Shown piece after piece: positions 5,466 to 9,438 of a DNA stretch of 64,000 nt (positions are counted from its first letter, which is position 1; every line of letters begins with the position of its first letter). The position numbers and the translations under genes are program-made. Source of the DNA: Desulfofustis limnaeus (GTDB lineage: Bacteria; Desulfobacterota; Desulfobulbia; Desulfobulbales; Desulfocapsaceae); contig NZ_AP025516.1 of assembly GCF_023169885.1 (NCBI RefSeq), positions 4,071,501 to 4,135,500 on the forward strand, read 5' to 3'. The notes under the pieces were generated by a model, which had not been told where the DNA came from, did no database searches, and was given only the letters and a program-made list of their open reading frames with translations.

Positions 5466-7217
5466 ATGAACTATCCTGTCTGGTATCTGCCCGAGGTTGG
5501 CGGCGGAATGCTCATTGCGCTGATCGCAATTCTTCATGTCTTTGTCTCGCATTTTGCAGTGGGCGGTGGTTTGTACCTGATTTACGCCGAGAAAAAAGGC
5601 CTGCGTGAACATCGTCAGGACATCCTTGCCTTCACCAAACGGCACGCCCGGTTTTTTCTGCTGCTGACCATGGTGTTCGGTTCCATCACCGGGGTCGGTA
5701 TCTGGTTCATCATTGCTCTGGTCAATCCGGCTGCCACTTCGCTGCTGATTCATATCTTCGTCTTCGGTTGGGCGGCCGAGTGGGTTTTCTTCGTGGTCGA
5801 GATAGTTGCCGCGTTCGTCTATTTCTATATGTTTGACAAGATGAGTCCGGCCAATCACCTGCGGGTGGGCTGGGTCTATTTCATCAGTGCCTGGATGTCG
5901 CTGTTTCTGATCAACGGCATTATCGGTTTCATGCTGACGCCGGGTTCCTGGCTGGAAAACGGCAATTTCTGGAGCGGCTTCTTTAATCCCTCCTTCTGGC
6001 CGTCGCTCGGTCTGCGGACCTTCATCGCCATCATGCTGGCCGGAGTCTACGGCTATCTGAGCGCATCGTTCACTCGTGAAACCGAAGTGCGGTTGGCGAT
6101 GACCCGATTTTCCGGTGCCTGGTCCCTGGGTGCTCTCTTAGCCTCGGTGCCGTTTGCCTGGTGGTACGTGGCGGCGCTTCCCGAACCGGCTATGGGGCTG
6201 GTACTCGGCAAATCCCCGACCATTGTCGCCGCCGTTCAATGGGGGACAATCGGCACGGCGGTTCTGCTGGTCATTATCCTGCTTGCCGGTATCATCAAGC
6301 CGGTGCTCAATCTTCGGCCTGTTGCCGCGGCAGCGATGATCTGCGCCTTGATCAGTATGGGGGCGTTTGAATGGATCCGAGAGGCGGCCCGACGACCATA
6401 TGCCATCAACGAAGTGATGTATTCCAACATGATCCGCAAAGACGATTTAAGCCGGCTTGCCGATCAGGGGTTTCTTCAGACCGCCGTCTGGGTGCAGGGT
6501 CGGGACCTGAACCAGGATACCCAGAAGGCAGCCGGCGAGGAGTTGTTTATCCAACAGTGTTACGCCTGTCACACCGCCGGTGGTTTCAACAATGATCTGA
6601 AGGCCCAGACGGCACGAATGAGCTACAGCGCCATGAGTTCCTACATCAAACGAATACACGAAGTGCGCTATTTCATGCCGCCCTTTGCCGGTACCGAGGC
6701 TGAGGCCGAGACCTTGGCCGCCTATCTGGTTGGCGAGTGGCACGGCAAGGATGTCGCCTTGCCTGCCAAACAGGCTGGTGTGATCTCCGGCGACCGGTTG
6801 TTCGAGCAGCATTGTGCCGCCTGCCATGTTCCCGAAGACCTGCACGAAACCTTGGCGGCCCTGGAGGCAGGCGAAGTCGTCGATCTCCTCGGCAGGCTCG
6901 ATGAAATATCGGCGGAGATGGAGCCATTTACCGGTACGGAGGAAGAAGCGAAAGTATTGGCTGGTTTTATACGAGGGGAGGGGACTGCCCCAGTGGTCGT
7001 CGTCCCGGACGGAGCGCTTTTGTTTGAAGAACAGTGTGCCGTCTGCCACGATTCAGCGGAATTGGGTGCCACTCTTACCGGCTGGGAACGGCCTGCCTTG
7101 CGTGATGCCCTAGACCGGCTTGAGGAGCTATCCGAAGAGATGCCGCCTTATGAGGGGAGTCCCGAAGAAAAAGACGCCCTGGCAGACCACCTGTTTACCC
7201 TCGGGAGGAACCAGTGA
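5466..7217 (+). CDS. Cytochrome bd-superfamily subunit I with three C-terminal c-haem motifs
   Basis: The 583-residue protein has a CydA-like membrane part (residues 1-310, about eight or nine helices) fused to a periplasmic cytochrome c part. Helix 1 carries His in AILHVFVSHFAVGGG. A helix with two glutamates (AAEWVFFVVE, near 103-112) is where CydA has its proton-channel or haem-ligand acids. WIREAARRPYAI near 305-316 is in the place of the GRQPW motif. Three CXXCH sites follow: CYACH 365-369, CAACH 450-454 and CAVCH 524-528. The long quinol-binding Q-loop of E. coli CydA is not evident. The family resembles the c-haem-bearing branch of the bd superfamily. Its terminal stop overlaps the ATG of the next gene, its likely subunit II. 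Electron donor (quinol or cytochrome c) and acceptor (O2) are inferred. Confidence 0.8.
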   Translation: MNYPVWYLPEVGGGMLIALIAILHVFVSHFAVGGGLYLIYAEKKGLREHRQDILAFTKRHARFFLLLTMVFGSITGVGIWFIIALVNPAATSLLIHIFVFGWAAEWVFFVVEIVAAFVYFYMFDKMSPANHLRVGWVYFISAWMSLFLINGIIGFMLTPGSWLENGNFWSGFFNPSFWPSLGLRTFIAIMLAGVYGYLSASFTRETEVRLAMTRFSGAWSLGALLASVPFAWWYVAALPEPAMGLVLGKSPTIVAAVQWGTIGTAVLLVIILLAGIIKPVLNLRPVAAAAMICALISMGAFEWIREAARRPYAINEVMYSNMIRKDDLSRLADQGFLQTAVWVQGRDLNQDTQKAAGEELFIQQCYACHTAGGFNNDLKAQTARMSYSAMSSYIKRIHEVRYFMPPFAGTEAEAETLAAYLVGEWHGKDVALPAKQAGVISGDRLFEQHCAACHVPEDLHETLAALEAGEVVDLLGRLDEISAEMEPFTGTEEEAKVLAGFIRGEGTAPVVVVPDGALLFEEQCAVCHDSAELGATLTGWERPALRDALDRLEELSEEMPPYEGSPEEKDALADHLFTLGRNQ

Positions 7218-8296
7218 TGGAAACCATGTACGTTCCTGCCGCCGATACCATCCCGGTTGCCTGGGGCTGGTTTCAGTTTTTTCTGCTTCTTACGTTCCCT
7301 CTCCATCTGTTGACCATGAATGCCATGCTCGGCGGGTTGGCGGTCGGCGTCAGTCAGCATTTTCTCGGCGGTGCGGTGCGTCAACGGTTGGCGCATCGGC
7401 TGGCTCTGGTGCTGCCTCTGGTGATCGCTTTTGTCGTCAACCTCGGGGTTGCCCCCCTGCTGTTCCTCCAAGTCCTCTACGGCCAGTTCGTCTATACCAG
7501 TTCGATTCTGATGGGGATGTTCTGGATCGCTATCGTACCGATATTGATCGTTGCCTATTACGGAGCCTACCTATACGATTTTCGCTTTTCCCGGTTGGGG
7601 GCCTTGGGAAAATGGGTGGGCCTGGCGGTGCTGGTGATGCTGTTGGTTGTCGCCTATTTCTTTGTCAACAACATGCTATTGATGTCATTGCCGGAGCAGT
7701 TTAACCGCTATTTTGAGCATCGTTCCGGCACGTTGCTGGCCTCAGGCCAGGCGGTGTTTCTGCCCCGTTATCTGCATATGATAACCGGCGCGTTGGCGGT
7801 AGGTGGTTTGTTTGTCGCGCTTGTCGGCCGTTACCGTGGTGGTGCCGACGATGAGCTGGCCATTCATGCCCGCTTGGTCGGGATGCGTGTCTTTTTCCTG
7901 CTGACCCTGGTTAACGTTGGTTTCGGTGTCTGGTACCTGATCTCCCAGCCTCGCGATACCATGCTGCTGTTCATGGGCGGTAACCCCTTGGCAACGGCGG
8001 TATTCATCCTTGCTCTGGTATTGGTGGCAGCGGTCCTGGTGACGGCCTATCGGCAGCAACTCGGCCTGACGGTGGCCGGGGTGGTGGTCCTCGTTTATCT
8101 GATGAGCTTCATGCGGGCCTGGCTGCGCAGTGACTACCTGGAGCAGGTCTTCCGGCTCGATCAGCTGCAGGTGGTGCCGCAGTACTCACCCTTGTTGTTC
8201 TTTTTGGTCACCCTGCTGATCGGGATAACCGTCATCTACTGGTTATTGAGAAAGACTCTCGAGGCCCTCCGCGACAGCGGGGCAACGCACTCATAA
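7217..8296 (+). CDS. Probable subunit II of the c-haem bd-like oxidase (membrane protein)
   Basis: A 359-residue polytopic membrane protein with about nine hydrophobic segments. The ATG overlaps the TGA of the upstream subunit I gene and is preceded by GGGAGG. The first helix region (AWGWFQFFLLLTFPLHLLTMNAML) and the His in PRYLHMITGALAVGG resemble the haem-surrounding segments of bd-type subunits. It therefore looks like a diverged CydA/CydB-like partner, not a classical CydB. No soluble domains are present. Translational coupling strongly suggests a heterodimer with the upstream protein. Function is inferred from that pairing; sequence similarity to E. coli CydB is weak by eye. Confidence 0.7.
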   Translation: METMYVPAADTIPVAWGWFQFFLLLTFPLHLLTMNAMLGGLAVGVSQHFLGGAVRQRLAHRLALVLPLVIAFVVNLGVAPLLFLQVLYGQFVYTSSILMGMFWIAIVPILIVAYYGAYLYDFRFSRLGALGKWVGLAVLVMLLVVAYFFVNNMLLMSLPEQFNRYFEHRSGTLLASGQAVFLPRYLHMITGALAVGGLFVALVGRYRGGADDELAIHARLVGMRVFFLLTLVNVGFGVWYLISQPRDTMLLFMGGNPLATAVFILALVLVAAVLVTAYRQQLGLTVAGVVVLVYLMSFMRAWLRSDYLEQVFRLDQLQVVPQYSPLLFFLVTLLIGITVIYWLLRKTLEALRDSGATHS

Positions 8297-8319: not shown

Positions 8320-9438
8320 ATGCGCGACAAGCTTTTTTTCAGGCGTCTTCTGCGTGAGCTACCAGGCTTGCTGACGATGTGCCTGTCAACGTTACTGTGT
8401 GCTTCATGCCTGCTCACTCCTCCCCCCTTTGCCGAACAGCAGTGGCGTCAGCAGGTTCTGAGCCAGGATCCGGCTGCTCTCTACGCCCCCCATGAGCGGG
8501 ATGGCAGGTTCTTCAACCCGTGGCAACCGGAAGAAAAGCGAGGTTTTTCTCAGGTTATCCGTTGGCGACTGACCCGTTCGGCTGATTATACCGACGAAGA
8601 GGAAGCGTTTCGTCCGCCGTTTCAGCCAGGACTGCTCGATCGGCTCAGAATCATGGAGCCGGATCGTAACATCCTGGTGTGGATCGGCCACGGAACCTTC
8701 CTGATCCGGCTGAACGGCGGCTGGTGGCTGACCGACCCGATGTTGTCGGAACGGGCCTTGCTGCCCAAACGCGTGTCACCTCCGGCCCTGCGGAAACAGG
8801 ACTTGGCCGCCTTGCCTGGTCCTCTCAATGTCATTATTTCGCATAACCATTACGACCATCTGGATGCGGCGACCATTGCGTCGTTACCTGCCACAAGCCG
8901 TTTTTATGTGCCGCTCGGGGTGGGCGAGTTGATCAGCTCGCTGCATGACGGAGCGGTAGTGGAGCTTGATTGGTGGCAGCGGGCGTTCGCCGGGGCGGAT
9001 GAACTGATCTGCCTGCCGGCCCAACACTGGTCCCTGCGGTTGGGAAGGGGGCGAAATGACTCTCTCTGGGCCAGTTTTCTGATCCGTTCCGGTGACATGA
9101 CCATCTATTTCGGCGGTGACAGCGGCTACTTCGTCGGTTATCGCGAATTTGGCCGGGTCTTCGATAATATCGATTACGCCCTGTTGCCGATCACCGCCTA
9201 TCATCCCCGCTGGTTCATGCATTATCCCCATCTCAACGTGGAGGAGGCCCTCCAGGCCTTTGATGACCTTGGCGCCCGGTATTTCGTGCCGAGCCAGTGG
9301 GGAACTTTCCATCTGGGTGATGAGCCGCCCGGTTATCCGCTGCTGGATCTGAATCGAGTCTTGCAGCTGGCCATGCGGCCGGAAGAACGCTATCTCCGGC
9401 CGGAACTTGGCGAAATAATCGTACTTGACGGTAATTAA
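8320..9438 (+). CDS. MBL-fold metallo-hydrolase, exported (NAPE-PLD/UlaG-like)
   Basis: The 372-residue product starts with a basic region and a hydrophobic segment ending LSTLLCASC, so it is probably exported and perhaps a lipoprotein, although the lipobox is not canonical. The metallo-beta-lactamase fold is shown by WIGHGTFLIRLNG (about 126-138), the metal motif SHNHYDHLD (about 175), AQHWS near 230, YFGGDSG near 268 and a distal His in SQWGTFHLGDE. The pattern with long N-terminal extension, WIGHGTFL and GDSGY is typical of the N-acyl-phosphatidylethanolamine phospholipase D-like and UlaG-like group. The native substrate is unknown. It follows the oxidase genes by 23 bases and could be co-transcribed. 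Confidence 0.85.
   Translation: MRDKLFFRRLLRELPGLLTMCLSTLLCASCLLTPPPFAEQQWRQQVLSQDPAALYAPHERDGRFFNPWQPEEKRGFSQVIRWRLTRSADYTDEEEAFRPPFQPGLLDRLRIMEPDRNILVWIGHGTFLIRLNGGWWLTDPMLSERALLPKRVSPPALRKQDLAALPGPLNVIISHNHYDHLDAATIASLPATSRFYVPLGVGELISSLHDGAVVELDWWQRAFAGADELICLPAQHWSLRLGRGRNDSLWASFLIRSGDMTIYFGGDSGYFVGYREFGRVFDNIDYALLPITAYHPRWFMHYPHLNVEEALQAFDDLGARYFVPSQWGTFHLGDEPPGYPLLDLNRVLQLAMRPEERYLRPELGEIIVLDGN

Follow-up and report, generated by a model that had tools for sequence, protein, structure and literature searches.

What would a cytochrome bd-like membrane protein with a c-haem tail do in a sulfur-cycling bacterium, and from where would it draw its electrons? The question is raised by two overlapping genes, here called S1 and S2, in a window of 64,000 nucleotides from Desulfofustis limnaeus (the whole stretch of DNA that was analysed). 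We consider it probable that the pair encodes a two-subunit, c-haem-bearing O2 reductase of the bd superfamily, fed by cytochrome c through the tail of S1. The features on which the argument draws are as follows.

5466..7217, + strand: S1, subunit I, 583 aa, a bd-superfamily membrane core with three c-haem domains (ORF, Pfam, AlphaFold model)
5466..6434, + strand: S1 membrane core (residues 1-323) with eight long helices (model, fold match, residue table)
6558..6572, + strand: first CXXCH of S1, residue 365, Met partner 404 (motif search, S1 alignment)
6813..6827, + strand: second CXXCH of S1, residue 450, Met partner 485 (motif search)
7035..7049, + strand: third CXXCH of S1, residue 524, Met partner 559 (motif search, model fold)
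7214..8296, + strand: S2, 360 aa, paralogue of the S1 core with nine long helices (profile comparison, model)
7304..7306, + strand: S2 H31, corresponding to H19 of E. coli CydA, in 45/45 S2 rows (residue table)
7775..7777, + strand: S2 H188, equivalent of the b558 ligand H186 of E. coli CydA (residue table)

The Pfam model Cyt_bd_oxida_I matches S1 at 35.3 bits against a cut-off of 26.2, over residues 17-225 only, and Cytochrome_CBB3 matches the tail in three stretches; the NCBIfam scan of S1 returned c-domain matches only, all under their cut-offs. When 58 genomes of the class were surveyed with PF01654, the matches, found in 53 of them, separated into canonical CydA, scoring 480-611 bits, and a second set of bd-like proteins that stay under 57 bits and match mostly along the first half of the profile (some short fragments excepted); window S1 has 35 bits. 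The AlphaFold model of S1, built with 55 sequences (pLDDT 86.5), shows eight long membrane helices. Ten solved bd entries align to it at Z 27.8-29.9 (303-318 residues), best of all the CydA chain 7ose_A (Z 29.9, 314 residues). Since direct profile comparisons with canonical CydA are weak, both for S1 (50% probable, E 1.6e-4, a point against) and for S2 (3.3%, E 0.013), what carries the kinship with canonical CydA is the Pfam match together with both models and the residue table. The CydA-like membrane part fused to a c-haem tail, as recognised in a preliminary description of the locus, is thus a bd core by Pfam, predicted fold and residues alike.

After the bd proteins, the S1 and S2 models fit best the membrane subunits of alternative complex III and polysulfide reductase (Z 14-19), which for S1 come next after the bd entries at Z 17-18. 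These fits stand above the unrelated rows, and it is possible that they reflect a deep kinship of bd and NrfD-like proteins.

The residue table comes from an alignment of 55 S1, 45 S2 and 9 canonical CydA sequences (E. coli included) with three solo homologues described below, the last two groups being small. S1 residues H24, E105, E112, E306 and R309 are the equivalents of E. coli H19, E99, E107, E445 and R448, and all five are kept in 55/55 S1 rows. Profile, predicted fold and residue tests together point to a real bd active site in S1. The quinol-binding side of the enzyme is another matter. The Q-loop residues K252 and E257, present in 9/9 canonical rows, fall in a gap in all 55 S1 and all 45 S2 rows, and the haem b558 ligands H186 and M393 are each found in 0/55 S1 rows; in window S1, no histidine lies between residues 132 and 345. 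With the site residues kept, both b558 ligands absent and no histidine in that span, one would expect two haems at the active site of S1 and no b558, as far as its residues can tell. The preliminary description had proposed that electrons could enter from a periplasmic cytochrome c and not only from quinol. The first half of this remains probable, given the loss of quinol residues and b558 ligands from every S1 row; the second fails, since the canonical-type quinol site is gone from S1. From these residues, cytochrome c is most likely the electron source instead of quinol.

The spacing of the two glutamates had also drawn attention, seven residues in the motif AAEWVFFVVE as against eight in E. 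coli. The count is true of window S1, where E105 and E112 lie seven apart (both invariant in the S1 alignment), and the spacing is eight in all 9 canonical CydA rows aligned. The unusual active-site geometry that was read into it does not follow, because the solved Geobacillus subunit (5doq) aligns gap-free at this place, its glutamates likewise seven apart, and E. coli carries an extra Leu101, described in the part of PMC6853902 available to us as an insertion in its helix 3 relative to Geobacillus. Seven versus eight is a known variation, and spacing was dropped as a sign of odd geometry.

The tail of S1 carries CXXCH at residues 365, 450 and 524, just as first reported, and three or more such motifs arose in 0/20,000 shuffles of the tail sequence. 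Each of the Met partners (404, 485 and 559) lies within an M(P/E)P(F/Y) motif. C365, C368 and H369 are invariant in the 55 S1 rows, the sole c-haem site that is invariant there, and in the model the third c domain adopts a cytochrome c6-like fold (Z 8.9 to 4eif over 67 residues). Next after the E306 helix comes the c domain, and in E. coli it is the Glu445 haem that lies closer to the periplasm (PMC6853902, in its available part); on these two grounds we infer that the c domain is periplasmic. The preliminary description held that the case would fall if S1 were a canonical bd protein whose relatives all lacked the tail; among the best 80 of at least 505 relatives, two or more CXXCH motifs were found in 79 and one in the other.

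The second gene begins within the end of the first. At the junction, CAGTGATGG, S2 may start at GTG 7214, in a 4-base GTGA overlap, or at ATG 7217, in a 1-base TGATG overlap; S2 is a second polytopic protein overlapping S1, as had been noted, with a GTGA or TGATG overlap in place of the ATGA then given. No Pfam or NCBIfam model matches S2. Its profile matches that of S1 at 96.4% (E 1.2e-9) over 265 columns in the same order and, run against whole genomes, also finds S1 frames (E 1.0e-9 and 2.0e-8), whereas the comparison with CydB gives 0.4% (E 0.15). A PDB search with the S2 profile returned only sulfotransferases, at E 0.09 and above, which we judged to be chance. The S2 model has nine long helices (pLDDT 91.9) and resembles ten bd entries at Z 26.2-29.4, the CydA chain being best in each; CydB chains also occur in the Foldseek list at lower rank, the CydA and CydB folds being alike. 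Predicted structures of both subunits, suggested earlier as a check, thus both match bd entries. The candidate that S2 is a diverged CydB was ruled out by sequence, on the profile comparison above.

S2 is thus a diverged paralogue of the S1 membrane core that has lost the catalytic glutamates and kept the H19 and H186 equivalents, a paralogy overlooked in the earlier reading of the locus. Over its 45 rows S2 is without equivalents of E99, E107 and M393, while that of R448 is kept in 45/45; the place of E445 is taken by Asp in 24, Glu in 9, Ala in 8 (window S2 among them) and other residues in the rest. The H186 equivalent is His in 44/45 S2 rows, against none in S1. That retained b558 histidine would suit a different role, in which S1S2 links the quinone pool to periplasmic cytochromes by electron exchange, with a b haem and quinone bound to S2 and O2 not the main substrate, and so would the resemblance of both models to the quinone-linked subunits of alternative complex III and polysulfide reductase (Z 14-19, as above). 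We nonetheless think such an exchange very unlikely, for S1 keeps its entire O2 site without variation, neither protein has K252 or E257, and S2 lacks an M393 partner.

The distribution of the pair was followed in 117 genomes of the host order, with per-genome counts taken by hand from the result tables. The S1 core was matched in 74 of these and S2 in 66. Wherever S1 matched strongly, in 65 genomes, S2 was present too; one further genome yielded a piece of S2 cut off by the contig end. In the remaining 9 of the 74 the S1 match is weak, and S2 is absent. The two genes are inherited together. Gene order was read from 80 loci, the best of at least 505 relatives and not a random sample. S2 adjoins S1 on the same strand in 75 of them; in the other five, two S1 genes lie at a contig end, and L098, L100 and L110 have room for S2 and lack it, a point against a cytochrome c-fed oxidase made of both subunits. 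At L014 (1486-4094), S1 and S2 are both broken over several reading frames, through either decay or sequencing error. The closest relatives among the matches listed come from records titled Desulfofustis, Desulfobulbaceae, Desulfopila and Desulforhopalus, and the S1S2 pair occurs, again among the matches listed, in records titled Desulfobulbaceae, Desulfuromonadales, Acidobacteria and Aminicenantes. A tree was made from 22 of the 55 S1 and 16 of the 45 S2 rows, with no named OR-C or OR-N rows, and in it the single rows L029 and L030 sit on long branches in unsure places. Such a spread, together with active-site residues that are invariant over 55 diverse S1 rows, makes it highly improbable that S1S2 is a degenerate or structural membrane protein in which only the c-haems work and oxidase function is gone, even if the missing catalytic glutamates of S2 could be taken that way.

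Tail type goes with gene order. Among the same best 80 of at least 505 relatives, S2 lies downstream of S1 in 31 loci, where S1 has 2 CXXCH motifs in 9, 3 in 20 and 4 in 2, and upstream in 44, of which 36 have 8 CXXCH and one has 9; the other upstream loci are five in which the contig end truncates the gene (3 or 6 motifs), L077 with 1 and L105 with 2 (in an 806-aa frame). The tails of two 8-haem proteins match MtrC/MtrF-like and cytochrome c3/c7 families in Pfam. Tails are thus modular, with 1, 2-4 or 8 haems.

Haems can sit on the other subunit as well. Five genomes have an S1-like frame (458-461 aa) adjoining an S2-like frame (362-652 aa). Within this set the S2 side was read in L166, L167 and L169 and both sides in L167 and L169, with G115 left out; longer antisense frames had kept the gene caller from showing the S1-like gene in L166 and either gene in L168. 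L167 (1271-5099) and L169 (618-4458) each have a two-CXXCH gene, an S1-like gene with one CXXCH and an S2-like gene with two, and the S2-like protein of L166 also has two. A more tentative view, for which we would claim a modest chance, is that S1 and S2 share the work of one bd subunit, S1 supplying the O2 site and S2 the b558 histidine with a b haem, and that the exchangeable tails wire the pair into the networks of different hosts. On that account S1 would have shed the b558 ligands and S2 the O2 site, S2 would bind a b haem, and tails of 1, 2-4 or 8 haems, or tails carried on S2, would fit different periplasmic carriers.

A further CydA homologue stands alone in eight genomes of two genera, all without an S2 match. 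Six of the eight were read (L157, L158, L159, L170, L171 and L172), and each has a C-terminal c domain, with one CXXCH in five and two in L158. No canonical CydA was found in G075, G082 and G087, the three solo genomes within the PF01654 survey. The solo proteins share with S1 a bd core and a C-terminal c domain, as does CydAh, the CydA homologue of cable bacteria (PMC13047784 and PMC10030654, in the parts available), which the same part of PMC13047784 names as a candidate for oxygen reduction. Our guess is that the solo homologues are possibly CydAh itself. Unlike S1, the three aligned solo rows keep H186 and M393, along with E99, and lack E107; window S1 differs from the solo type in lacking both b558 ligands and in having S2.

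Compared with the canonical CydAB of E. coli and Geobacillus, then, S1S2 is alike in fold and oxygen-site residues (and, for Geobacillus, in the glutamate spacing of seven), and unlike in the absence of the Q-loop residues, the b558 ligands and a CydB-like partner and in its added c-haems. A closer likeness is to the OR-C family of the cytochrome bd superfamily, reportedly set out by Murali, Gennis and Hemp in the ISME J in 2021. We take OR-C to be the c-haem branch of the superfamily, with haem c on subunit I and no quinol-binding site; the bd core of S1S2 would share both traits, the missing quinol site and the added haem c. When these traits were looked for in S1, covalent haem c motifs were present and the quinol-site residues absent. 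The preliminary description had also mentioned a c-haem-bearing branch. The name OR-C stands in print, with qOR and OR-N, in the available part of PMC13189123; in the corresponding part of PMC11707229 these families serve as profiles, and that of PMC10839748 uses them too. CydAA' pairs, archaeal ones and the OR-N pairs of Nitrospinota and Nitrospirales, are similar in having two paralogous bd-superfamily subunits and no CydB, according to the parts of PMC10839748 and PMC12342949 available. They differ from S1S2, in which S1 has a covalent c-haem tail and S2 is without the oxygen-site glutamates. The subunits of CydAA' are not known to carry haem c. In the literature searched, the founding OR-C paper lying outside it, no description of S2 or of tails with 2-4 or 8 haems was found, nor the combination of an S1 that has lost its b558 ligands, an S2 that has kept the histidine, and exchangeable tails.

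On the oxygen defence of an anaerobe, which the preliminary description had in mind, the host genome points both ways: it encodes dsrA, but also three COX1-family proteins and, apart from this locus, a canonical CydA (533.7 bits) with a CydB-like frame beside it. These other oxidases make the need for S1S2 doubtful, a point against reading it as a cytochrome c-fed oxidase. Two cytochrome c assembly proteins favour that reading; cytochrome b gave one short match only, a further point against, as it bears on how electrons would reach cytochrome c. Downstream of S2 in the window, 8320-9438 encodes a beta-lactamase-fold hydrolase (Lactamase_B_2, 112.5 bits in Pfam). For the neighbours in relatives, the Pfam scans covered a single member per cluster. 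Among the best 80 of at least 505 relatives, canonical cydA lies near in 6 loci and cydB in 7; the six mapped cydA neighbours are on the opposite strand, with an Rrf2-like gene between in four (one scanned by Pfam). All the cydA-neighbour loci fall within one group of related genomes, so this neighbourhood may represent a single event. In five Geobacter-type loci (L042, L044, L046, L048 and L058) a gene with eight CXXCH motifs directly follows S2, and the one scanned is Pfam Cytochrome_cB.

Some of these neighbours could be taken to mean that S1S2 mainly reduces nitric oxide, or another small oxide of nitrogen or sulfur, drawing on cytochrome c for electrons. There are NO sensors among the Rrf2 proteins, and an Rrf2-like regulator gene stands by S1S2 in four loci; relatives of octahaem cytochromes such as those encoded after S2 in the five Geobacter-type loci reduce nitrite or tetrathionate. 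We regard this substrate as unlikely, however, given that the bd oxygen-site residues are all retained and that several relatives have canonical cydAB, an O2 reductase, as a neighbour. The role may in any case be filled in the host, where two COX1-type frames of 774 and 799 aa are of a size that suggests quinol NO reductases.

For the favoured reading, the cytochrome c-fed O2 reductase, a route can be sketched from these residues and models. A periplasmic c-type cytochrome would pass electrons to the His/Met c-haems of the S1 tail, and from there they would go directly to the active site of S1, in place of the route through quinol and haem b558. Two close haems, at H24/E105 and at E306, would reduce O2. 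S2 would take the position of CydB in the canonical enzyme, possibly with its own haem. Were the protons taken up from the cytoplasm, as in canonical bd, turnover would build a proton motive force.

Automated annotation of such a locus would give at most a partial CydA without a partner, since window S2 matches no Pfam or NCBIfam model, yet the pair is present in 65/117, over half, of the order's sampled genomes. Because S1 has lost the b558 ligands, it allows the need for individual bd haems to be tested sharply. The S1S2 pair bears both on the oxygen tolerance of sulfate reducers and on oxygen reduction in cable bacteria: if it does reduce O2, electrons from the periplasmic cytochromes of these anaerobes would pass to oxygen, bypassing the quinone pool.
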